29,235 nt of DNA. Source: a virus. How positions within the stretch are numbered: position 1 is the first letter of the stretch; each line of letters starts with the position of its first letter. The position numbers and the translations under genes are program-made. The DNA lies in IMG/VR virus record IMGVR_UViG_3300000115_000124, positions 1 through 29,235 of that record; one strand, 5' to 3'. The notes beneath the pieces were generated by a model, which was not told where the DNA came from, did not search any database, and saw only the letters and a list, made by a program, of their open reading frames with translations. Shown piece by piece: positions 4,215 through 20,468 of the stretch.

Positions 4215-4240
4215 GAAGGCATCATTTCTTTGATGCCTTC
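4215..4240 (-). terminator. Perfect 10-bp hairpin spanning the stop codon upstream of the tape measure
   Basis: The inverted repeat GAAGGCATCA / TGATGCCTTC is separated by a six-base loop. In RNA from the minus strand the downstream arm starts with the TGA stop of the 114-residue frame. It is not followed by a T-run, so it is a poor intrinsic terminator. It could instead be an attenuator, a processing site or a 3'-end stabiliser that sets the ratio of chaperone to tape-measure expression. Confidence 0.5.
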
Positions 4241-4566
4241 GCTACATACGTTGGAGATTTCTTTGCTGTTTTTATATGTTGAGGGGCTTCAACCTTACCC
4301 TCAGAATTTATAACGGTATTTCCTGGTGAGGATTTACCTTGAGCTTTTTTCATATTTGCTGCCTCTTTATCATAATGCTCTTTCATTTTATTAAATGTAA
4401 AATTACGAAGCCAAATAGGCATATTATATACGGTATGCCAATCATACCCTCCATTTCCATGAAACACTATCTCATGGATCTGGGCGAATAATGAAATTCT
4501 ATATGTTTGCGTCAGGCCAAAAAAACGTGACAGTAATGGGAATCTCAACGTCCTCCCCACCGTCAC
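4222..4566 (-). CDS. Probable frameshift extension of the tail assembly chaperone (T-like domain)
   Basis: The open frame is 114 codons if read from the ATG at 4566, but the first 68 bases overlap the end of the 248-aa gene in another frame. The part that looks like real protein begins near SLFAQIHEIVFHGNGGYDWH and continues through MPIWLRNFTFNKMKEHYDKE into a Lys-rich, low-complexity tail. The first 16 residues look like out-of-frame reading. A gene made of a short domain overlapping the end of an upstream gene, placed between tail tube and tape measure, is the classic layout of G/GT chaperones, where the second domain is made only by ribosomal frameshift. A +1 or -2 shift on the seven-T run (4519-4525) would fuse 242 residues of the upstream product to the last 98 residues here, giving about 340 aa. 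Independent initiation cannot be excluded. Confidence 0.65.
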   Translation of the reverse strand: MTVGRTLRFPLLSRFFGLTQTYRISLFAQIHEIVFHGNGGYDWHTVYNMPIWLRNFTFNKMKEHYDKEAANMKKAQGKSSPGNTVINSEGKVEAPQHIKTAKKSPTYVAKASKK

Positions 4567-5245
4567 TCAATTCCACTTGTGTTAATAAATTCACGTCAGG
4601 TTGATGTGCTGCTACGTGTTTTCTAAATGCTCTTGCGTCTGATGCTAGGAAGTATGTATCAACAAATTCCCGCACTGTTTTACGTTCAGAATCTCCGTTG
4701 ACTGATAATATCATCTGTTTCATACGTGTAGACATTGACGGATCTGCATTTTTGTTAATTTTTTTCAATCCTTTAAGTTCAGCTTCTATTGCCATTTCAT
4801 CTTTATGACATAAAAGTTTATAAGTAATTTCAGTACCCGATGTAGGTAATGTAAAGTTAAATTCATTAACACCTTGACTAATAGAACTTTCATCAAATTC
4901 TTTATTTTCTAAAGTACTTAAATCAACTTCAACTTCTTCTCCTTTATACTCAAACTTATAATCTTTACCATATCCTAAAATACGGGCTGCAATCATAATT
5001 GCATTTTTATCTCCTACAATAAGATCACTGTAGTTAACTTTAGATACAATTAGTGCTTTTAACAGTTTATCTAAAACTGTTCCATTTTGAATATATGATT
5101 GGTTTGAAAGAATATCTTCTTCCTTAGCAGTCATATACTTCATTTCAACTTTACCACTTGATAAGGGGTTGTCTTCGGGGTAAATTAACCCTTTTGAGGG
5201 CAAATCAATAGTTTCGGTGGGAAACTTTAATGCATTTTCTTCCAT
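4499..5245 (-). CDS. Putative tail assembly chaperone / T4 gp26-like baseplate protein
   Basis: This 248-aa protein begins MEENALKFPTETIDLPSKGL and carries the segment GKVEMKYMTAKEEDILSNQS at about 31-50. That pattern resembles the T4 base-plate family containing gp26 and gp51 (remembered family resemblance, not a search). The middle is alpha/beta (residues 85-150), and the C-terminal part contains MILSVNGDSERKTVREFVD, ending in VTFFWPDANI. It is encoded between the tail tube and tape measure, where most tailed phages encode the chaperone that coats the tape measure, and it ends inside the overlap with a downstream frame. I therefore favour a chaperone role, with baseplate-hub assembly as the alternative. 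A terminator and an A/T-rich leader with TATAAT precede it, suggesting its own promoter. Confidence 0.62.
   Translation of the reverse strand: MEENALKFPTETIDLPSKGLIYPEDNPLSSGKVEMKYMTAKEEDILSNQSYIQNGTVLDKLLKALIVSKVNYSDLIVGDKNAIMIAARILGYGKDYKFEYKGEEVEVDLSTLENKEFDESSISQGVNEFNFTLPTSGTEITYKLLCHKDEMAIEAELKGLKKINKNADPSMSTRMKQMILSVNGDSERKTVREFVDTYFLASDARAFRKHVAAHQPDVNLLTQVELSDGGEDVEIPITVTFFWPDANI
4519..4525 (-). promoter_or_regulatory. Seven-T slippery run, candidate programmed frameshift site
   Basis: In the coding strand the sequence is ACG TTT TTT TGG in the 248-aa frame and CGT TTT TTT GGC in the downstream frame. A peptidyl tRNA-Phe on the second TTT can move one base forward and still pair perfectly. 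A two-base backward slip also leads to the downstream frame. Polymerase slippage on the homopolymer is a third possibility. The site lies six codons before the zero-frame stop. Confidence 0.5.
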
Positions 5246-5344: not shown

Positions 5345-5833
5345 TTAGAAATTTAATACTGCGTAATCTATAGCTAATGTTAAACTAATAGATTGTGCTT
5401 GAGCATCTGTATCCCAATTGTATCCATCGAATGTTGCATCTTTAATAAATGCACCTTTTAAAATCCATTCAGAAACTACATCACCAACTGGACCTAATAC
5501 ATTTACTGTAACATCCTTCTTATAGAAATCACTATAACCATCTCTACCTGTTACTGATTCATGGTGTAATCTTACCCACTCCATTACCGCTTGAGCACCT
5601 GAAGGTGTAATTGGGTCATAAAGTTTCATTGTTACATCACTCCATGTTGATTTACCTTTAACTTTACGTTGAACGTTAATGTGATTTAAGGTAACTTCTG
5701 CTTGCTCGATTTTCACTTCTCCAAACTCTTTAATCATATATGATGGAATTCCATCTACATACATGATAAACCTATTTGCTTGTTTTGGTTCAAATGCTGT
5801 GAAAAATATTTCGTTTGGATCTAGTACTGCCAT
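5345..5833 (-). CDS. gp19: Tail tube protein (T4 gp19 family)
   Basis: The 162-aa product has the size and pattern of the T4 gp19 / PF06841 tube family. The N-terminal strand region is FEPKQANRFIMYVDGIPSYM. The central block VTMKLYDPITPSGAQAVMEW is followed by RLHHESVTGRDGYSDFYKKD, then DATFDGYNWDTDAQAQSISL and a final strand DYAVLNF. Hexameric rings of this protein stack to form the inner tube through which DNA passes. It directly follows the sheath gene, as in T4, and has its own ATATTTATAA motif 29 bases upstream and a terminator downstream, both fitting high and separate expression. The start at 5833 gives MAVLDPNEIFFTAFEPKQAN. Confidence 0.93.
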   Translation of the reverse strand: MAVLDPNEIFFTAFEPKQANRFIMYVDGIPSYMIKEFGEVKIEQAEVTLNHINVQRKVKGKSTWSDVTMKLYDPITPSGAQAVMEWVRLHHESVTGRDGYSDFYKKDVTVNVLGPVGDVVSEWILKGAFIKDATFDGYNWDTDAQAQSISLTLAIDYAVLNF

Positions 5834-9646: not shown

Positions 9647-9656
9647 TTATAAATAT
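9647..9656 (-). promoter_or_regulatory. ATATTTATAA leader motif before the fibre gene
   Basis: The coding strand reads CTTGATATTTATAAACAAAA. It ends 12 bases before the ATG at 9634 and overlaps the stop codon of the heptosyltransferase-like gene, so fibre expression can be separate from the glycosyltransferase operon. Confidence 0.5.
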
Positions 9657-10855
9657 CAAGAATTTTTTATTCTTTCAATAGCTTTAATTATTAATTCAGG
9701 ATGAATTGATTTAGTACATTCAAACTGTTTTTCTGTGTTTTTGTTTTTGGGACACCATTCCCAATCTCCGGGATCTAATTTTTCTTTATTATAACAACTA
9801 TTACAGGTATTAAGGTCAGGGGTAAATATTCTTTCGCAATCTTTAAATTCACTAAAGGGTGCGCTAAATCCTGATATTAATATTGTTTTTTTATCTAATG
9901 CCCAATTTAACCAACTTAATCCACTACCTATACCTATAAAGAATTCTGCATTCATCATATCATTAGCTCTTTCAGCTAAAGAATAATCTCCAGTTTTATC
10001 AATTACCCCTGTTAAAGTACCCCCTAATTTAGAATCATGCCATTCATCCCCTAAAGGTTCTTTAGTAATCATTACAACTTTATAACCTTTACCATTTAAA
10101 TAATCAATAATAGTTTGCCAACCTCCTGGGGTGTTCCAGTACTTAGCATGAGCAGATCCATGAGGTGCTATGCATACATATTTCCCATCAATTGTGGGGC
10201 CATTATTTGTAAATGTTAAATTAGGTTTTAATTCATTATAATCTATACCTAAAATATCTGCACTACATTCTTGTAAACTATATTTTCTAAAATCACTAGG
10301 GTTAGTTTCATAATTTATAGTATTATTTTCATTATAATGCCAACCAACTTCGTACATAGCATATAAATCAAATACTTCAGTTCCAGGTTTTATAAATTTT
10401 ATGTTAGGGTAATTTTCTTCAAACCATTCATTATAAAAAGTAGAAACAATTAAATCGCAATTGTGTTTTTTTCTAAATTCTTCGGCATAAGGAAACCATG
10501 CTAAAGTATCACCTATTGCTTTTGAAGCAAAGTGAATGTAAACTTTTTTCCCCTGGGCATTATATGAGTGTTCATATATAATATTTCCACTATCTACATC
10601 TTTAACTTTTACTAAATAATTTACAAAATATTGCTTAGTACATTTAGTCCACATATTATTTGTAATTGTGGTTTCATAAACTATTTTCCCATTATCTTGG
10701 TTAATAAATTGAACATTAAATTTTCCTTCTTTTTCACCTAAAATTTCTAAAGTAGAATTATTAATAAAATTTAATTTAAATACATAATCTCCAATTTTAG
10801 ATTTTATGGTTGTTTTCTTTAAGTTATTATATTCTTTAATTAAAACTTCTTTCAT
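9656..10855 (-). CDS. Autotransporter-type O-heptosyltransferase homologue (Aah/TibC family)
   Basis: This 399-aa protein resembles the bacterial autotransporter O-heptosyltransferases, which transfer heptose from ADP-heptose to Ser of repetitive adhesins in the cytoplasm. An N-terminal beta-rich domain spans 1-100. The GT-B core then shows AIGDTLAWFPYAEEF (113-127, with Asp116 a candidate catalytic base) and SLQECSADILGI (193-204). It continues with HAKYWNTPGGWQTII (236-250), GIGSGLSWLNWAL (308-320) and ISGFSAPFSEF (327-337). Four Cys (351, 354, 368, 380) with the spacing CxxC...WCP...FEC match the metal-binding finger of the TibC type. The length fits the family. It overlaps the upstream glycosyltransferase by ATGA, so it is translationally coupled. 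The donor sugar is uncertain, because ADP-heptose synthesis would depend on the host. Family assignment is strong, substrate is inference. Confidence 0.85.
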   Translation of the reverse strand: MKEVLIKEYNNLKKTTIKSKIGDYVFKLNFINNSTLEILGEKEGKFNVQFINQDNGKIVYETTITNNMWTKCTKQYFVNYLVKVKDVDSGNIIYEHSYNAQGKKVYIHFASKAIGDTLAWFPYAEEFRKKHNCDLIVSTFYNEWFEENYPNIKFIKPGTEVFDLYAMYEVGWHYNENNTINYETNPSDFRKYSLQECSADILGIDYNELKPNLTFTNNGPTIDGKYVCIAPHGSAHAKYWNTPGGWQTIIDYLNGKGYKVVMITKEPLGDEWHDSKLGGTLTGVIDKTGDYSLAERANDMMNAEFFIGIGSGLSWLNWALDKKTILISGFSAPFSEFKDCERIFTPDLNTCNSCYNKEKLDPGDWEWCPKNKNTEKQFECTKSIHPELIIKAIERIKNS

Positions 10856-11802
10856 AAAAACTGATTGTATATTTTGATAATTTCTTTACTACGATTATAC
10901 CATGATAATCTATTTGAGGTTTCTAAACATTGATTCTTATAAGATTTCCAATTATTTAATATATCTTTTAACCCTTGATCCATTTTAAATATATCACGTG
11001 GGGCTCTCCAACACCCATGCAAATCAACTTCCATCTCCCAATCAGCTATAACAGGCAAACCTGCAGCCATAGCTTCAATCATTGTTAAATTTGGATGACC
11101 TGCCTCTAACATAGTGGGGTGGATGAAAATATCGTGGAGGTGAAATAAATTTAATAGTTTATTATTAGGTGTATCAAATACTAAATTTAGTTTAGGATAA
11201 CTTAACATCCAAAGATGACCATTAAAAAAATTTTTATTATTAGAAGGTCCAGCTATAGTAATTTCTAAATCATTCATCATAGCTAATCCTAAACCATATT
11301 CAAATCCTTTTCTATCAAACGTATGATCACCCCCTAAACCATTATTGGCTAACATTAATAATTTTGGATTAGTAGGGAGAGGATGATATGTTTTTTGGTA
11401 AAAATCATCAGTGTTTACACCATGAGAAAAATAAACACATTTTGGGTGGTTAAAATAATCAACTAACCAATTAGCAGGCATTAAAGATATTAATGAACCC
11501 TCTATGGCTTGTAAATTTTCTTTATATACACGAGATTCTTTACCATAATGTAATACATGGTGATCATGTAATTGGTAAATATAAGGTATACCTCTTTCTT
11601 GTAAGCTAATTGCTAAATTAGCTACATGACAATGGACTATATCAAATTCTTCAGGAATAATATCACCAGCCATTTTGTGGATAGAATCATGACCTAATTT
11701 AGTTTGATTAATTTCAAATTCCCATATAATTTTTTCAATTGCCCCCCAATCCTTAGGAGGTATATTTAAACCACATGCTGGGTCTACATGACATATTTTC
11801 AT
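10852..11802 (-). CDS. GT4-like glycosyltransferase
   Basis: The 316-aa product has a GT-B fold pattern. The N-terminal domain starts MKICHVDPACGLNIPPKDWG, followed by FDIVHCHVANLA (53-64) and YIYQLHDHHVLHYG, a form common in GT4 acceptor domains. The C-terminal donor domain has LLMLANNGLGGDH, then DLEITIAGPSN, HDIFIHPTMLEAGHPNLTMI and EAMAAGLPVIADWE. The two acidic residues that usually form the E-x7-E motif are here E233 and E243, slightly further apart. There is no membrane segment. It overlaps both flanking glycosyltransferases by four bases, making a three-enzyme operon. It probably extends or starts a glycan on a virion protein. Donor and acceptor are not determinable from sequence. Confidence 0.85.
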   Translation of the reverse strand: MKICHVDPACGLNIPPKDWGAIEKIIWEFEINQTKLGHDSIHKMAGDIIPEEFDIVHCHVANLAISLQERGIPYIYQLHDHHVLHYGKESRVYKENLQAIEGSLISLMPANWLVDYFNHPKCVYFSHGVNTDDFYQKTYHPLPTNPKLLMLANNGLGGDHTFDRKGFEYGLGLAMMNDLEITIAGPSNNKNFFNGHLWMLSYPKLNLVFDTPNNKLLNLFHLHDIFIHPTMLEAGHPNLTMIEAMAAGLPVIADWEMEVDLHGCWRAPRDIFKMDQGLKDILNNWKSYKNQCLETSNRLSWYNRSKEIIKIYNQFL

Positions 11803-14453
11803 AGTTTAATATCTCCTTTTATATTAGTTTCACTTATTTTATGGTCTACCAAACTATGGCCTTTTGCTTGGAAAACCAAAGGTTCTTTAAAAAATCCTTT
11901 AGGTTCATTTCTAAAATTATTAGTTACCCATAAGTCAAAAGCATCCCATTTTGAATTTTTTATCACAGCATGGACTCTATCAATTTTATTCCCCATAATT
12001 AAATAAGAATGTGCATCTGTAAACATACCAGCATCCAGATGGTTTTCATATTCATTAAATACTTCATAATTATGAGCAAAGCTAAAGAAAGTATATTTTT
12101 TTTCTTTAGATATTTCAATGGATTTATATAATTTATTTACAAACTCTTCAGTATCAATTAATAACAAAGCATCACATTCGAAAAATAGATATGTTGTATC
12201 ATCATCTTTAGGACAAGACATTATTGCATCTGTGTGTGCTTTAAAACAACCATAATGTCCATAAGATAATTTATAATAACCTGGTTCTGGTTGTACATCA
12301 TTAGGTCTATTACAAGTTCCTATAGGAAGTAAATCTGTGTTTGGATTATTTATTACTTGAGTGTATTCTATATCTTTAAATTCACCTAACTTACTAATTG
12401 ATTCTATTGACCTTTGCTCCCTTTCAGAATTTGGTTGTGATAATAAATGTATTATTTCTACTTTAGGTTTAGGTAATTCTCCTTTCCATCTAAAATGACC
12501 ATTATTAGATAAATTATTAAAATATTCTTCATCTATAATGAATTCTTTAGTTTCTATAAAATCATCTCCATTAAAAATATTAAATTCTACCCTATAGTTA
12601 TTTTCAAATTTAATTAAATCCCAAAATGAATATTTTTGATCTATATTTAATTCTCTATCAATAATTAATTCTTCATTTTTATAAACTTTATATTTAACTA
12701 TTCTACTATCTTTGCTATTAGAAATGTAAAAATAAGGTACAAAATAATTTGGAACGTTTGTAGGTAAAATAGAAAAATATTCTATACGAGAAAAATCTTT
12801 ATGTAAAAATATTTCTTGTGTTTTCAATTCAAATAAATTTTCTTTTTCTCTATATATTGCTCCTTCATTTTTAAAAATATGATGGAATAAATTTTCTAAA
12901 CCGTTAGATTCAGAACCATAAACTTCCATTAAATTATCATATTCTTCTCCTGTAGTTATTTTAGGTAATACTCTTAATAGTTCTTTGGGGTTCGCTGAAA
13001 AGAAATAAGTGTATAAAGCATCTCCTTCCATAGGGTGATGGTTAGAAAAGTAAAAATTGTTTTTATTTAAAATTTTAGAAATATCTTTTATTCCTTGTTT
13101 ATCTTTTAAAATATAATCATAATTTAAAAAATGGACTTTAGAATAATTTAATTGAGTAGATAAAGCAGCACCATTATAATAATTAGTGTAAACTGAGGGG
13201 CCATGATATACGTCATTATTTTCACCTTTTAAATTAAGATCAACATCATATAAATCACTATTCCAATAAAATTTTTCATAAAATGTATGTTTAGTTAAAA
13301 TATTATTAGTATCGACAATACAATAATCTGCTTGATCTTGAAGAATTTTAGGAATTGAAATGTGTGAGGTTAATATAACTTTATAACCATTATCTTGTAT
13401 GGATTTTACGCAGTCTAACGTTGTATTAATAATGCTATCTGTTGATGGGTACGTTGATACTACAAAAACTTCATCGTGTATTAATACATTAAAATTAATA
13501 TCTAAATTTGATTTAATTAAATTACAATTTTTTTCAAAATTATTAGGTTCTAAGTAATTAATAGATTCAAATTTATCAAAATAATTAAGGTAAACTGGTA
13601 GGTTATATAATAATTGAGGTATTCGATATGATAATGCTTCACGAATTACTAAGGGCATTGTTTCCTTATCATTATTAGTACCACGAGATGTAAATAAAAA
13701 TAAATCCATAGATTGGTAAAAATTATTTACATCCGAACGTTCATTCCACCATGTTAGATTATTAGGTTTATCCCCCATTAAAGGTTCCCAATAATGTTTA
13801 AAATTTTCTGCTTGATTTCCTACACAATGAAATTCATACTCAGGTAATGCTTTAGCATATTTAAAAAATTCTTCTTGGTTTTTTCTTGGGGTGAATAAGC
13901 CTATGTGTAATATATGTTTTTTTGTAGGATCTAGACCTAATTTTTCTAAGCTTTCTTTTCTATTAGGTCTATCAATATATTCAATTGGGTATTCTACTAA
14001 AGATTTTGGTATATCTAAACCTTTATATTGATTTATTTGCCATTGAGAGACAAACATAAATTTATCTGGGAAGAAACGTTTTTGGGATGTATCAAAAGAT
14101 GAGTCATGAGATGTTTCTACAATAAAATAATCTCTATCTAAAGTATATAATTTTTTAGATACCTCATTATCCATAAAATATTCAGGAATTTCTTCTAAAT
14201 GAACTATATTAGGTTTTAAATCATTAATAATGTCTAAAAGTTCAAATTTATTTTCTCCTAAAGTATAAAATTTATCAGAATCAACTAAATCTACAAGTTT
14301 ATCTCTTTGTATAGTAAGAACTCCCCCAGTACAATCCACCCATTCAACAAGATAAATTTCAAAATCTTGCTTTAATAGTTCTATTTTTTTAACTAAATAT
14401 TGAGGTAGACCTCCTGTAGATAGATGTGGGGCTACATATAGTAGTTTTTTCAT
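11799..14453 (-). CDS. Multidomain glycosyltransferase with GT-B N-terminus and GT25-like C-terminus
   Basis: This 884-aa protein appears to have at least three parts. Residues 1-320 look like a GT-B enzyme: LLYVAPHLSTGGLPQYLVKK at the N-terminus, HILHIGLFTPRKNQEEFFKY (180-199), then DLFLFTSRGTNNDKETMPLV and REALSYRIP. Residues 327-545 start VFVVSTYPSTDSIINTTLDC and resemble nucleotide-sugar-binding folds, but are less certain. Residues 550-650 are beta-rich. Residues 664-875 resemble GT25: EIIHLLSQPNSEREQRSIES, then LSYGHYGCFKAHTDAI (729-744) in place of the usual GEIGC-SH motif, and TYLFFECDALLL (754-765) in place of the acidic EDD metal-binding motif. Relatives of GT25 include lipooligosaccharide and collagen galactosyltransferases. 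It lies 52 bases after the 47-aa frame and couples to the next gene by ATGA. Confidence 0.78.
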   Translation of the reverse strand: MKKLLYVAPHLSTGGLPQYLVKKIELLKQDFEIYLVEWVDCTGGVLTIQRDKLVDLVDSDKFYTLGENKFELLDIINDLKPNIVHLEEIPEYFMDNEVSKKLYTLDRDYFIVETSHDSSFDTSQKRFFPDKFMFVSQWQINQYKGLDIPKSLVEYPIEYIDRPNRKESLEKLGLDPTKKHILHIGLFTPRKNQEEFFKYAKALPEYEFHCVGNQAENFKHYWEPLMGDKPNNLTWWNERSDVNNFYQSMDLFLFTSRGTNNDKETMPLVIREALSYRIPQLLYNLPVYLNYFDKFESINYLEPNNFEKNCNLIKSNLDINFNVLIHDEVFVVSTYPSTDSIINTTLDCVKSIQDNGYKVILTSHISIPKILQDQADYCIVDTNNILTKHTFYEKFYWNSDLYDVDLNLKGENNDVYHGPSVYTNYYNGAALSTQLNYSKVHFLNYDYILKDKQGIKDISKILNKNNFYFSNHHPMEGDALYTYFFSANPKELLRVLPKITTGEEYDNLMEVYGSESNGLENLFHHIFKNEGAIYREKENLFELKTQEIFLHKDFSRIEYFSILPTNVPNYFVPYFYISNSKDSRIVKYKVYKNEELIIDRELNIDQKYSFWDLIKFENNYRVEFNIFNGDDFIETKEFIIDEEYFNNLSNNGHFRWKGELPKPKVEIIHLLSQPNSEREQRSIESISKLGEFKDIEYTQVINNPNTDLLPIGTCNRPNDVQPEPGYYKLSYGHYGCFKAHTDAIMSCPKDDDTTYLFFECDALLLIDTEEFVNKLYKSIEISKEKKYTFFSFAHNYEVFNEYENHLDAGMFTDAHSYLIMGNKIDRVHAVIKNSKWDAFDLWVTNNFRNEPKGFFKEPLVFQAKGHSLVDHKISETNIKGDIKL

Positions 14454-14651: not shown

Positions 14652-17600
14652 TTATCCTTCTGGAGAGTATCCTGGGAATACATAAGGTTCACCTTGCACA
14701 TTTATCCTTAACCATACATCAGGTGTACCTGTAACATTACTGTCAGGTTGATTACCCCATATCATGTTTATCCCTGCTCCACCTTCTGGGTTTTGCATTG
14801 TTGGTGGATTAAATGGATCGTCAATTCTTGCGGTATCTGTTCTTGTTTGACCTGTATTATATAAAACATTGGTCGAATTATTTGCTGTAACAAAATCTAC
14901 TGAAGATACTTGTGTTGTTGAATCAGTTTTAACTAAATAATCTGGGTGATTAACAAAAGCACCACCACTAATACCACTTGTACCATTTATACTAGTACCT
15001 GAAGTTCCTGGGACACCTGATGTACCATTTGTTCCATTCTTACCTGATGTTCCATTTGCACCACTTTGTCCTGAAGTTCCGGATGCTCCTGTAGTACCAT
15101 TTCCTCCATTTACCCCTGAAGTTCCGGATGCACCATTTCGTCCTGAAGTTCCTGCTGCTCCTGAAGTTCCTGAAGCACCATCTATTCCTGAAGTACCATT
15201 CGAGCCATTAGTTCCATTTACACCTGAAGCACCATTTGCACCACTTGTACCATTTGCACCATTTGTTCCATTTGTTCCGGAAACACCATTCTTACCACTT
15301 GTACCATTTGCTCCTGTTGTACCATTCCCACCGTTAGTACCATTAGTACCTGATACTCCGTTTTTACCGCTTGTACCGTTAGCTCCAGTAGTACCATTTC
15401 CTCCATTTACCCCTGAAGTTCCTGATGCTCCGTTTTTACCTGAAGTTCCTGCTGCTCCTGTTGTACCTGAAGTTGCTGCAACACCTGAAGTTCCTGCAGC
15501 ACCATCTACACCTGAAGTACCATTTGAACCGTTTGTACCATTTACACCTGATGCTCCATTTGCACCACTTGTACCATTTGCACCATTTGTTCCATTTGTT
15601 CCTGAGACTCCGTTTTTACCGCTTGTTCCATTAGCACCAGTTGTACCATTCCCACCGTTAGTACCATTAGTACCTGATGCTCCGTTTTTGCCTGAGGTTC
15701 CTGCTGCTCCTGTTGTACCATTTGCACCGTTTGTACCTGAAGTTCCTGATGCACCATTTTTACCTGAAGTTCCTGCTGCTCCTGTTGTTCCTGATGTTGC
15801 AGCGACACCACTTGTTCCGGCAGCACCATCTATACCTGAAGTACCATTTGAACCATTAGTTCCACTTACTCCTGAAGCACCACTAGCGCCTGAAGTACCA
15901 GGATCTCCTGATGTACCATGTGTACCATCTTTTCCAGAGGTACCATTTGTACCATTTTTACCTGAAGTAGCTGCGACACCTGAAGTACCTGCAATACCAT
16001 TTTTACCATTTGTACCTGCTGAACCATTTGTTCCACTTGTAGCTGATAAACCTGAAGTACCTGCTACTCCCGAAGTTCTATTAGCACCTGAAGAACCAAA
16101 TGTTCCAGATGTAGTACTTGAACCTGAAGTTCCTGCAACTCCTGAAGTTCTACTATCACCTGAAGTGCCATTAGTACCACTTGTAGCTGATAAACCTGAA
16201 GTACCTGCTGCTCCATCTACACCGGAAGTACCATTAGAACCATTTGTTCCACTTACTCCTGAAGCGCCTGAAGCACCTGAAGTACCTGGATCTCCTGAAG
16301 TACCGTTAGTACCATCTTTACCTGAAGTACCTGCAACACCTGTTTTACCACTTGTTCCATTATCACCTGATGTACCATTTGTACCATCTTTACCTGAAGT
16401 ACCATTAGTACCATTTTTACCTGATGTTCCTGCTACTCCTGAAGTACCACTACCTCCATCTACACCTGAAGTTCCTGAAGAACCTGAAGTTCCTGAAACT
16501 GCTGAAGCACCATTTGCACCTGCTGTACCATTAGATCCTGAAGAACCTGTTGTTCCTGAAGTACCTGATTTTCCTGAAGTACCTCCTACACCTGAAGTTT
16601 TATTATCTCCTGAAGAACCTACTGTTCCTGAAGTATTACTTGAACCTGAAGTCCCTGCTATACCTGAAGTTCTACTAGCACCAGATGAACCAAAGGTTCC
16701 AGATGTAGTACTTGAACCTGAAGTTCCGGCTTGTCCTGAAGTTCTACTATTACCAGATGAACCATTTGTTCCGCTTGTAGCTGATAAACCTGAAGTTCCG
16801 GATGCTCCATCTATACCTGAAGTACCATTTGAGCCATTTGTTCCGCTTACACCTGAAGCACCTGAAGCGCCTGAAGTTCCAGGATCTCCAGATGTACCAT
16901 TTGTTCCATCTTTACCTGATGTTCCTGCTACCCCATTTTTACCACTTGTACCTGCAGCACCTGTTGTACCTGAAGTAGCTGCGACACCTGAAGTACCTGC
17001 AATACCATTTTTCCCTGAAGTACCTGCTGAACCATTTGTTCCGCTTGTACCTGCTACTCCACTTGTACCTGATCCTCCATCTGTACCACTTGTACCTGCT
17101 GAACCATTAGTTCCACTTACACCTGAAGCACCTGAAGCACCTGAAGTACCTGGATCTCCTGAGGTACCTGCTGTACCATCTTTTCCAGAGGTACCATTTG
17201 TACCATTTTTGCCTGAAGTTGCAGCAACACCTGAAGTTCCAGCTACACCATTCTTACCTGAGGTACCTGCTGAACCATTTGTTCCGCTTGTACCTGCTAC
17301 TCCACTTGTACCTGATCCTCCATCTGTACCTGAAGTACCTGCTGAACCTGAAGTACCTGAAACTGCTGAAGCACCATTTGCACCTGCTGTGCCAGAAGTA
17401 CCTGAAGAGCCTGTTGTACCTGAAGTACCAGATTGACCTGAAGTACCTATTAATCCATTTTTACCTGAAGTTCCTGATGAGCCTGTTGTACCTGATGTTG
17501 ATGCAACACCACTTGTACCAGAAGCACCATCTATACCTGAAGTTCCTGATGAGCCTGAAGTTCCTGAAACTGCTGAAGCACCATTTGCACCTGCTGTACC

Positions 17601-20468
17601 TGCTGAACCTGTTGAACCTGAAGTTCCTGAAGTTCCACTTACTCCTGAAGTTCCACTTGCCCCTGTACCTGAAGTTCCTGTTGAACCTGCTGTACCTGAA
17701 GTACCTGAAATAGCACTAGTTCCACTAGCTCCATCTATACCACTTGTTCCTGCTGAGCCACTAGTTCCACTAACAGCTGAAGCACCATTTGCTCCTGCCG
17801 TACCAGAAGTACCAGATGAACCTGTTGTACCTGAAGTACCAGATTGGCCTGAAGTTCCTACTATGCCATCTTTACCTGAAGTACCACTTGAACCTGTTGT
17901 TCCTGAAGTACCACTATCACCTGAGGTTCCTGAAGCTCCATCTATACCACTTGTTCCTGCTGAACCTGAAGTTCCACTTACACCCGAAGCACCTGAAGCA
18001 CCTGAAGTACCTGTTGATCCTGAAGTTCCTGAAGTTCCACTTACGCCTGAAGTTCCTGATGCTCCTGTACCTGAAGTTCCTGTTGAACCTGCTGTACCTG
18101 AAGTACCTGAAATAGCACTAGTTCCACTAGCTCCATCTATACCACTTGTTCCTGCTGAACCTGAAGTACCTGAAACTGCTGAAGCACCATTTGCACCTGC
18201 TGTACCTGAAGTACCAGATGAACCTGTTGTACCTGAAGTACCAGCTTTACCTGAAGTTCCTATTATACCATCTTTACCTGAAGTTCCTGAAGAACCTGTT
18301 GTTCCTGAAGTACCACTATCACCTGAGGTTCCTGAAGCTCCATCTATACCTGAAGTACCTGATGAGCCTGAAGTTCCTGAAACACCTGATGCTCCACTGT
18401 CACCTGAAGTACCTGTTGAACCTGAAGTTCCTGAAGTACCACTTACACCTGAAGTTCCACTTGCTCCTGTACCTGAAGTACCTGTACTACCTGCAGTACC
18501 ACTTGTACCTGATATAGCACTTGTACCACTTGCTCCATCTATACCTGAGGTTCCGGCTGAACCACTAGTTCCACTTACACCTGAAGCTGCACTAGCTCCT
18601 GAAGTACCTGGGAGTCCTGATGTACCTGAAGTACCTGCCGTACCTGATGTATTTCCTTCTCCATTATTTCCTGCAGTACCTGTTGAACCTGATGTTCCTG
18701 AAGTACCTGAAGATCCTGATCCTCCATCTATACCTGAAGTACCTGAAGATCCTGTTGTACCTGAAACGGCTGATGCTCCTGATGCTCCTGCTGTACCTGA
18801 AGAGCCGGTTGTTCCTGAAGTTCCTGATGAACCTGTTAACCCTGAAGTGCCGCTTGTACCTGAAGTACCACTTGTACCACTTGCTCCATCTATACCACTA
18901 GTACCTGCTGAACCAGAAGTTCCAGAAACTGCACTTGCTCCATTATCTCCTTGGGTTCCTGATGAACCTGTTGAACCTGAAGTACCTGATGAACCTGTTA
19001 ATCCTGAAGTGCCGCTTGTACCTGAAGTACCACTTGTACCTGCAGTACCACTATCTCCATCTATTCCTGATGTTCCTGATGAACCTGAAGTACCACTTAT
19101 ACCTGAAGCTCCACTATCGCCTGAAGTACCACTCGAACCTGTTGTTCCTGAGGTGCCTGATGTGCCTGAAGTACCTGAGGTACCTGCTAAACCACTTGTA
19201 CCACTTGCTCCTGTACCACTTGTACCAGTTGAGCCTGATGTACCTGAAGTACCATTAGCCCCTGAAGTAGCATTAATTCCTGATGTACCTGAAGTACCTG
19301 AAGATCCTGCTGTACCTGAAGATCCTGCTGTACCTGATGTGCCTGAAATTCCTGAGGTACCACTTACACCTGTACCACTTGTACCAGTTGATCCTGAAGT
19401 ACCTGAAGTACCGCCTTGACCTGAGGTTCCTGAAAATCCTATAGTTCCTGAAGTACCGGTTGTACCTGAAGTTCCTGACGTACCTGAAGTTCCAGATGTA
19501 CCAGCTTTCCCTGATGTACCACTATCACTTCTACCGCTTGATCCTACGGAGCCACTTGAACCACTTGTACCTGATTTTCCTGATGTACCAAGTGAACCTG
19601 AATTACCAGCGGATCCTTCAGTACCAGAAGTGCCTGAAGTGCCATCTAAACCACTTTGTCCAGATTGACCATTTGAACCAAAAGTACCATTTGTACCTGA
19701 TTTTCCAGAAGTACCTGATGAACCTGTTAAACCTGAAGTACCATTTATACCTGAAGATCCATTTTCTCCTGATGTACCTGATAAACCAGAAGTACCACTT
19801 ATACCTGAAGAACCTATTTCTCCAGATGTGCCTGATGTACCGGAATCTCCTGAAGTACCACTTGTTCCTGATGATCCTGCAGTACCTGAAGTACCACTTG
19901 TTCCTGATCCTCCTCCTGCTCCTGGGAGTGTTCTATATTGAATTTTTTTAGTTGATAGATCGTAAGTAGCTACTGTAAATAAATCTGATCTTTCTGTAAG
20001 TGAATCAATAGATAATGGATCTGTTCCATTTATACTAAATGAACCTGTTAATTTTAAATCAGTATTATCATAATCAAATGTAAATTTATTAGAACCACTT
20101 AATTCAGTACTACCTGCTGAACCAGAAGCAAATTGGATTTCTGTATCTGAACCACCTGCACTTTCGCCTTCTGGAATAAATATTGTAACTCCTCCATTAG
20201 GAAGTGAAGTTACATCAACACCTCCACCTGTAAAAAATAAGGATTGTGCATAATTTACTTGTGAACCAGTATAATATACTTGAACACCTCCTATACCAGG
20301 TAAAGTACTTAAATCTATACTTTGAGATAAAGGAGGAGTACTACCAGTAAAGAAAAAGTTAACTACACTACCTGCTAATGAGCTAGAATAAAAAAGTGAT
20401 GAAAAATTTCCATCTACTTCACTGAATGTTAATTCAGATCCTTTATTTTGTCTTAAAATAATACTCAT
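14652..20468 (-). CDS. Giant collagen-like fibre protein (Gly-Thr-Ser repeats)
   Basis: This 1938-aa protein has three parts. Residues 1-186 form a non-repetitive N-terminus. It opens MSIILRQNKGSELTFSEVDG, a pattern often seen at the virion-attachment end of tail fibres, and contains IQFASGSAGSTELSGSNKFT. Residues 187-1835 are about 550 Gly-x-y triplets, dominated by GTS, GSS, GAS, GID, GKN and GNG and nearly free of Pro. Residues 1836-1938 form a distinct C-terminal domain (HPDYLVKTDSTTQVSSVDFV, then PDVWLRINVQGEPYVFPGY) that may bind a receptor or trimerise. If the triplets form a triple helix with about 0.29 nm rise per residue, the shaft would be about 470 nm long. It overlaps gp15 by ATGA and is followed by three glycosyltransferases, suggesting its many Ser, Thr and Asn residues are glycosylated. 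That link is inferred. Confidence 0.85.
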   Translation of the reverse strand: MSIILRQNKGSELTFSEVDGNFSSLFYSSSLAGSVVNFFFTGSTPPLSQSIDLSTLPGIGGVQVYYTGSQVNYAQSLFFTGGGVDVTSLPNGGVTIFIPEGESAGGSDTEIQFASGSAGSTELSGSNKFTFDYDNTDLKLTGSFSINGTDPLSIDSLTERSDLFTVATYDLSTKKIQYRTLPGAGGGSGTSGTSGTAGSSGTSGTSGDSGTSGTSGEIGSSGISGTSGLSGTSGENGSSGINGTSGLTGSSGTSGKSGTNGTFGSNGQSGQSGLDGTSGTSGTEGSAGNSGSLGTSGKSGTSGSSGSVGSSGRSDSGTSGKAGTSGTSGTSGTSGTTGTSGTIGFSGTSGQGGTSGTSGSTGTSGTGVSGTSGISGTSGTAGSSGTAGSSGTSGTSGINATSGANGTSGTSGSTGTSGTGASGTSGLAGTSGTSGTSGTSGTTGSSGTSGDSGASGISGTSGSSGTSGIDGDSGTAGTSGTSGTSGTSGLTGSSGTSGSTGSSGTQGDNGASAVSGTSGSAGTSGIDGASGTSGTSGTSGTSGLTGSSGTSGTTGSSGTAGASGASAVSGTTGSSGTSGIDGGSGSSGTSGTSGSTGTAGNNGEGNTSGTAGTSGTSGLPGTSGASAASGVSGTSGSAGTSGIDGASGTSAISGTSGTAGSTGTSGTGASGTSGVSGTSGTSGSTGTSGDSGASGVSGTSGSSGTSGIDGASGTSGDSGTSGTTGSSGTSGKDGIIGTSGKAGTSGTTGSSGTSGTAGANGASAVSGTSGSAGTSGIDGASGTSAISGTSGTAGSTGTSGTGASGTSGVSGTSGTSGSTGTSGASGASGVSGTSGSAGTSGIDGASGTSGDSGTSGTTGSSGTSGKDGIVGTSGQSGTSGTTGSSGTSGTAGANGASAVSGTSGSAGTSGIDGASGTSAISGTSGTAGSTGTSGTGASGTSGVSGTSGTSGSTGSAGTAGANGASAVSGTSGSSGTSGIDGASGTSGVASTSGTTGSSGTSGKNGLIGTSGQSGTSGTTGSSGTSGTAGANGASAVSGTSGSAGTSGTDGGSGTSGVAGTSGTNGSAGTSGKNGVAGTSGVAATSGKNGTNGTSGKDGTAGTSGDPGTSGASGASGVSGTNGSAGTSGTDGGSGTSGVAGTSGTNGSAGTSGKNGIAGTSGVAATSGTTGAAGTSGKNGVAGTSGKDGTNGTSGDPGTSGASGASGVSGTNGSNGTSGIDGASGTSGLSATSGTNGSSGNSRTSGQAGTSGSSTTSGTFGSSGASRTSGIAGTSGSSNTSGTVGSSGDNKTSGVGGTSGKSGTSGTTGSSGSNGTAGANGASAVSGTSGSSGTSGVDGGSGTSGVAGTSGKNGTNGTSGKDGTNGTSGDNGTSGKTGVAGTSGKDGTNGTSGDPGTSGASGASGVSGTNGSNGTSGVDGAAGTSGLSATSGTNGTSGDSRTSGVAGTSGSSTTSGTFGSSGANRTSGVAGTSGLSATSGTNGSAGTNGKNGIAGTSGVAATSGKNGTNGTSGKDGTHGTSGDPGTSGASGASGVSGTNGSNGTSGIDGAAGTSGVAATSGTTGAAGTSGKNGASGTSGTNGANGTTGAAGTSGKNGASGTNGTNGGNGTTGANGTSGKNGVSGTNGTNGANGTSGANGASGVNGTNGSNGTSGVDGAAGTSGVAATSGTTGAAGTSGKNGASGTSGVNGGNGTTGANGTSGKNGVSGTNGTNGGNGTTGANGTSGKNGVSGTNGTNGANGTSGANGASGVNGTNGSNGTSGIDGASGTSGAAGTSGRNGASGTSGVNGGNGTTGASGTSGQSGANGTSGKNGTNGTSGVPGTSGTSINGTSGISGGAFVNHPDYLVKTDSTTQVSSVDFVTANNSTNVLYNTGQTRTDTARIDDPFNPPTMQNPEGGAGINMIWGNQPDSNVTGTPDVWLRINVQGEPYVFPGYSPEG
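14964..19910 (-). repeat. Collagen-like triplet repeat tract
   Basis: About 4.9 kb in units of nine bases encode Gly-x-y triplets. Gly, Thr and Ser codons vary from unit to unit (GGT/GGA/GGC, ACT/ACA, TCA/TCT/AGT). Triplets lacking Gly (AVS, AIS, ATS, RTS, TTS) and two-residue Gly-Thr insertions before GAS or GVS interrupt the pattern. Toward the C-terminal end GTS gives way to Asn-Gly-rich triplets. Confidence 0.95.
17300..18540 (-). repeat. 402-bp higher-order tandem repeat inside the collagen-like tract
   Basis: The landmark ATAGCAC recurs at 17710, 18112 and 18514, exactly 402 bases apart, with flanking sequence shared over long stretches. In protein each unit is 134 residues and contains GIDGASGTSAISGTSG, then GTGASGTSGVSG, KDGI and GANGASAVSG. 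The copy nearest the C-terminal end of the fibre is shortened and all three have diverged by point changes. Confidence 0.8.

Follow-up and report, generated by a model that had tools for sequence, protein, structure and literature searches.

Very probable +1 programmed frameshifting in the tail assembly chaperone genes of a T4-related phage group

Introduction

In a T4-type structural module two reading frames overlap between the tail tube gene and a probable tape measure gene, raising the question of whether they are separate genes or the two halves of one tail assembly chaperone joined by a ribosome that changes frame and, in the latter case, in which direction the change occurs. The stretch analysed (the window) is the 29,235-base virus record IMGVR_UViG_3300000115_000124, a 29-kb fragment for which a search of a phage collection returned no DNA match. 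Its minus strand carries the genes for sheath and tube, ORF A, ORF B and a gene of 1046 aa (Table 1). A first-pass annotation had proposed a programmed +1 or -2 frameshift that makes a chaperone fusion in a T4-like phage, and the elements on which it relied, including the coordinates, the 248-aa gene, the 68-base overlap and the seven-T run at 4519-4525, were all correct.

Frameshifting in tail chaperone genes is a textbook example of recoding, usually in the -1 direction. Vladimirov and colleagues reportedly encountered frameshifting in several T4-like groups. The review by Atkins et al. (2016, PMC5009743) describes G-T frameshifting as widely conserved "except T4", with -1, -2 and +1 shifts in different phages. 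The study of Vladimirov, Gautam and Davidson (2022, Virology 566:9) is reported to have identified the T4-like chaperone genes; later papers refer to it when they mention the two-gene solution or -1 poly-T signals.

Results

The Locus and Its Protein Family

ORF A matches phrog_150, the family of T4 gp26/gp51, with an E of 2.1e-9. In the Pfam search ORF A itself gave no match to PF12322, a family that is reached by its relatives in Listeria phage LIS04 (SP-15-type), Streptococcus phage GXN1 and the 484-kb uncultured phage LR756508 (E 5e-24 to 2e-15). The second frame is open from 4566 to 4222, at an offset of +1 (equivalently -2) relative to ORF A. The 1046-aa gene had no match of its own in Pfam or PHROG; its counterpart in Flavobacterium phage immuto carries a tail tape measure annotation. 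A location between tail tube and probable tape measure is also that of G/GT-type chaperones.

Table 1. Features at the chaperone locus of the window (positions in the window)
Feature	Position	Strand	Description
ORF A	4499..5245	-	248 aa; gp26-family protein, predicted short tail assembly chaperone (TAC-N)
ORF B	4222..4521	-	+1 frame, from last TTT of the T-run; ~100 aa; predicted TAC-C of the long form
Putative frameshift site TTTTTTTGGCCTGAC	4511..4525	-	T7 at 4525-4519; near-invariant across 97 lineages
SD-like element GGGGAGGA	4551..4558	-	5' of the slip site; possible stimulator
Tail tube protein, gp19-like	5345..5833	-	phrog_4542 E 5.5e-24; Pfam Phage_T4_gp19 E 2.8e-6; upstream neighbour
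Probable tape measure protein, 1046 aa	1050..4190	-	Assigned by position and size; downstream neighbour

PF12322 spans residues 1-206 of T4 gp26 and 1-201 of T4 gp51, and phrog_150 extends through the gp51 C-terminus, while gp26 and the A proteins that are matched up to their own ends stop at profile position ~233-241. This coverage indicates that T4 gp51 has the layout of an A part followed by a B part. Profile comparisons suggest that B is linked to the C-terminus of T4 gp51 through the cyanophage gp51, which was described as short and as matching the C-terminal part by Sullivan et al. (2010). Specifically, B of the window clade aligned to cyanophage gp51 (hhalign 89.8%, E 1.8e-6) and the latter to the T4 gp51 C-terminus (hhalign 97.7%, E 1.6e-12); the direct alignment of window-clade B to the T4 gp51 C-terminus was weak (hhalign E 0.08) and in register.

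The structures of A and B were modelled as two separate chains. The AlphaFold model of A (pLDDT 89.6) strongly matched baseplate hub proteins of SP-15 and other phages in BFVD (SP-15 E 1.5e-16), and its best PDB row in VIA-align was the HK97 tail assembly chaperone 2ob9, a weak match (Z 4.7, 74 residues, residues 5-97; Foldseek E 3.5). B was predicted to be helical with modest confidence (pLDDT 71), and its model returned no significant fold match; the second row was a 57-aa protein of phage pf16 (E 0.62) that, judged by its length, is probably the -1-frame half in that phage.

Elsewhere on the minus strand of the window, a 1938-aa ORF (14652-20468) with very long SGTSGTSG/GXY-type repeats probably encodes a fibre protein, and the long open frames on the strand opposite to it look like repeat artefacts. 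The structural module also includes ORFs of 399, 316 and 884 aa (9656-14453) that appear glycosyltransferase-like by eye.

Conservation of the Slip Site and of the Frame Offset

Read in the frame of ORF A, the codons at the T-run are ACG TTT TTT TGG CCT GAC, and a T7 in such a phase occurs only once in 21 kb of coding sequence of the window. Among 155 homologous loci having both frames, B lies at the +1/-2 offset in 153; the canonical -1 direction of G/GT chaperones is not the one found in these loci, and the offset noticed in the first-pass annotation is real and well outside what chance would give. After thinning of the homologues to 97 lineages (<85% identity), the site reads TTT[T/C]TTT, and the GGCCTGAC that comes next hardly varies; the site is preserved almost unchanged even where the proteins share only ~33% identity, and the stop codon of A sits at a few fixed distances 3' of it. 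Both features for which an alignment of homologues had been suggested, T-run and offset, are therefore conserved. A few lineages have eight T's rather than seven.

Codon usage at the junction is biased in the same sense: 187 of 187 Phe codons are TTT across the 97 lineages vs 695 of 846 (82%) elsewhere in the same genes, for which the naive chance, ignoring shared ancestry, is ~1e-16. This conservation of TTT could in part be due to another constraint. Base 4 of the run is the variable one among close lineages and changes always to C (7/97), so that slips from UUU to UUC or from CUU to UUU stay possible.

The nearly invariant GGCCTGAC was considered as an additional signal and dropped, since its conservation can be put down to a double reading as W-P-D and G-L-T. 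The post-shift codons GGC CTG (window 4518-4511, minus strand) are little used by this AT-rich phage (CTG accounts for 5 of 7103 codons) yet conserved, for which dual coding with the zero-frame W-P-D may be the reason.

The Second Frame Is Under Coding Selection and Often Has No Start Codon

In 47 aligned sequences B becomes conserved precisely from the T-run onwards, in agreement with the earlier remark that the sensible part of the second frame starts just after it. Nucleotide differences in B numbered 144, 83 and 359 at codon positions 1, 2 and 3 (31 independent pairs), a pattern which shows that B changes in the manner of translated DNA. No ATG, GTG or TTG precedes the conserved peptide FFGLT in the second frame of 43 of 95 lineages, and an ATG in that position is found in only 18; in eight lineages the frame is open just three codons upstream of the Gly codon. 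The first-pass annotation would have been contradicted by homologues in which the frames are separate genes with their own starts; the 43 lineages lacking any start codon are of the opposite kind. A conserved slip site and frame offset, together with a second frame that often has no start of its own, are the features expected of a G/GT-type pair.

Relatives With a +1-Frame or a -1-Frame Second Half

A +1-frame B follows A in immuto (TTT_CTT_TGG), Microcystis phage Mel-JY01 (TTT_TTT_TGG), LR756508 (TTT_CTA, in the context AAC_UUU_CUA), Bacillus phage SP-15 (TTT_TTT_CAC), LIS04 (TTT_TTT_AGT) and GXN1 (TTC_TTT_CGT_C). It is also present in contigs from Bacteroidota bins and in a WOR-3-bin contig that is only 33% identical and still has TTT_TTT_TGG_CCT. 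The six named relatives, five of them isolates or complete phage genomes and the sixth the 484-kb metagenomic phage, have one A and one B each and no full-length second A+B gene, SP-15 showing one extra weak partial hit (E 0.03); a long form would consequently need the shift in these phages.

In other relatives B follows in the -1 frame at T_TTT_TTN, namely in P-SSM2, S-PM2, Syn9, HTVC008M, pf16, K575, Aeh1, OLIVR5 and a Rhizobium phage. The site is T_TTT_TTC in 80 of 80 cyanophage-type loci and T_TTT_TTT in HTVC008M; Vibrio phage D503 gave no clear site. The Phe-Phe pair is common to the +1 and -1 groups, and what differs is the position of the T-run relative to the frame. The tree of A has a fully supported side that holds the +1 members and also two -1 members (L255 and L257, with B in the -1 frame at T_TTT_TTC); the remaining -1 members and the T4 group lie on the other. 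L255 and L257 have long branches and are possible reversals of direction. Over all groups the tree requires four label changes, a count of switches that is provisional as two of the branches concerned are long. Altogether, it is rather likely that one chaperone family has switched direction, at one and the same Phe-Phe pair, between -1 (T_TTT_TTN) and +1 (TTT_TTT_T or UUU_C), the gene duplication of the T4 group being a third solution.

In immuto, LIS04, SP-15 and GXN1 the B half has either been overlooked or been entered as a small hypothetical protein that begins at an internal start; the misannotated halves lie at L159 6851-6961, L162 5711-5942, L256 2321-2440 and L163 5733-6000. The "gp51" of cyanophages and Pelagibacter phages (L283, L284, L285, L286 and L287-L366) usually appears in annotations as a tiny gene standing by itself; it looks instead like the second half of gp26, read in the -1 frame.

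Possible Stimulators

RNAalifold predicted no pairs in 82 sequences and thus no conserved RNA structure. Folding is somewhat stronger in the 50-nt windows just 5' of the site (mean -10.6 vs ~-4 kcal/mol), which are also higher in GC. A GGAG, GAGG or AGGA motif lies ~27-33 nt 5' of the T-run in 80 of the 97 lineages vs 24% of background windows; this SD-like element may be there just to specify Glu-Glu. With 9 UGG codons per 1000 in the window, the zero-frame codon is not a rare one, and a simple model of a starved A-site codon therefore fits poorly.

Discussion

Proposed Mechanism and Alternative Explanations

The match to phrog_150, the position between tube and tape measure genes, the offset, the T-run, the missing start codons and the selection on B support the programmed frameshift and the T4-like chaperone fusion put forward in the first-pass annotation. 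Very probably, this locus yields a short and a long tail assembly chaperone of the G/GT type by programmed +1 frameshifting. Most ribosomes would read A to its stop codon and release the short form. Some would move one base forward on UUU_UUU_UGG with tRNA-Phe holding UUU in the P site; the tRNA would re-pair to the UUU one base on, and reading would continue as GGC CUG AC. into B, giving a fusion A-FFGLT...-B of ~340 aa. VTFFGLTQTYR, the peptide previously named for detection by mass spectrometry, is the junction expected from a +1 shift. Either of the two adjacent Phe codons could be the one that slips. By analogy with lambda, the short form and the shared A part would bind the tape measure protein, and the rarer long form would recruit tail tube subunits via B. 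That the shift occurs, that it proceeds by +1 over -2 and that its products act in assembly is what we infer from these comparisons.

The same pair of proteins would result from programmed -2 frameshifting, in which tRNA-Phe moves back two bases in the T-run and adds one extra Phe (FFF-GLT). On UUU_UUU_U re-pairing is perfect at both +1 and -2, and the window sequence alone cannot decide between them; a -2 shift is known in tail genes of Mu, according to Atkins et al. (2016, PMC5009743). The CUU_UGG variants were considered as proof of +1 and dropped, given that a -2 shift is compatible with them, as the tRNA on CUU could pair again at UUC, and that the UUU before it can also slip, to UUC. The sites that favour +1 are those of GXN1 (UUC_UUU_CGU_C) and LR756508 (AAC_UUU_CUA), where re-pairing is good at +1 only; as these are distant members the argument is one by homology, and it leaves -2 as an unlikely reading. 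Translation of B as a separate gene by reinitiation or coupling, with no fusion, could draw on the ATG, GTG or TTG that lies upstream in the open frame in 52 of 95 lineages, on the SD-like element present in most of them and on the annotation of B from an internal ATG in immuto. Nevertheless, the 43 lineages with no start codon, the eight lineages open only three codons before Gly, the onset of conservation exactly at the T-run and the presence of both parts in one protein in T4 gp51 speak against it, the constraint on the T-run would be left unexplained, and we regard this possibility as very unlikely.

Two further readings place the frame change outside translation. RNA polymerase slippage on a homopolymer of seven T's, or eight in a few lineages, would yield some mRNAs one T short from which ordinary translation makes the fusion. 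Seven T's are short for efficient transcriptional slippage, and relatives with TTTCTTT, TTTCTA or TTCTTTCGT have no such run and an unchanged B frame, making this scenario highly improbable. A sequencing or assembly error that split one gene would be of a common type, frame breaks at homopolymers being frequent errors; it is refuted by the comparison across loci, since the same offset recurs in cultured phages and in more than 100 contigs that were assembled separately, and the stop of A falls at a few fixed distances after the site.

Significance and Comparison With Known Systems

If +1 frameshifting is accepted as the very probable reading, a large, mostly marine and environmentally common T4-related group departs from the usual -1 direction, and its relatives that very probably shift by -1 at homologous codons provide a natural series for what decides direction. 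Should the switch be true, these comparable proteins would reveal what sets the direction of recoding and how one direction gives way to the other during evolution. The analysis also corrects the annotation of the B half in immuto, SP-15, LIS04 and GXN1 and of the cyanophage "gp51". The first-pass annotation had considered a T4-like member using +1 or -2 notable; T4-like chaperones shifting at -1 had been published before, and T4 has two genes for the purpose. A partial literature search found no paper on the +1 clade. The clade appears to be new, as do the near-invariant UUUUUUUGGCCUGAC site it carries and a switch of direction inside a single family.

Within the T4-like chaperones (T4 gp26/gp51; PF12322, phrog_150) the A parts are homologous, and T4 has a short (A) and a long (A+B) form, as the window clade would. 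T4 achieves this with two genes, gp26 and gp51, whereas the six named relatives have no second full-length gene; the cyanophage, rhizobial and Aeromonas relatives would shift by -1 at the same Phe-Phe codons at which the window clade would shift by +1 (or -2). At the level of mechanism, the RF2 site (CUU_UGA) offers a P-site slip from CUU to UUU that resembles CUU_UGG in immuto and other members. In the influenza PA-X type of site a +1 slip takes UUU to UUC, to which UUC_UUU_CGU_C of GXN1 is alike. RF2 and PA-X are unrelated genes and the chaperone sites have no A-site stop codon, thus the likeness is one of mechanism and not of homology. As described by Atkins et al. (2016, PMC5009743), tail chaperone genes of different phage groups, Mu (-2) and the halovirus HSTV-2 (very likely +1), also reach the +1 frame. 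The same source describes lambda gpG/gpGT, which shares with the window clade the place between tube and tape measure genes, a short form with a frameshifted long form and an overlap of low complexity close to where the first gene ends; lambda shifts by -1 and the window clade very probably by +1, and the likeness is one of layout, with no sequence similarity claimed.
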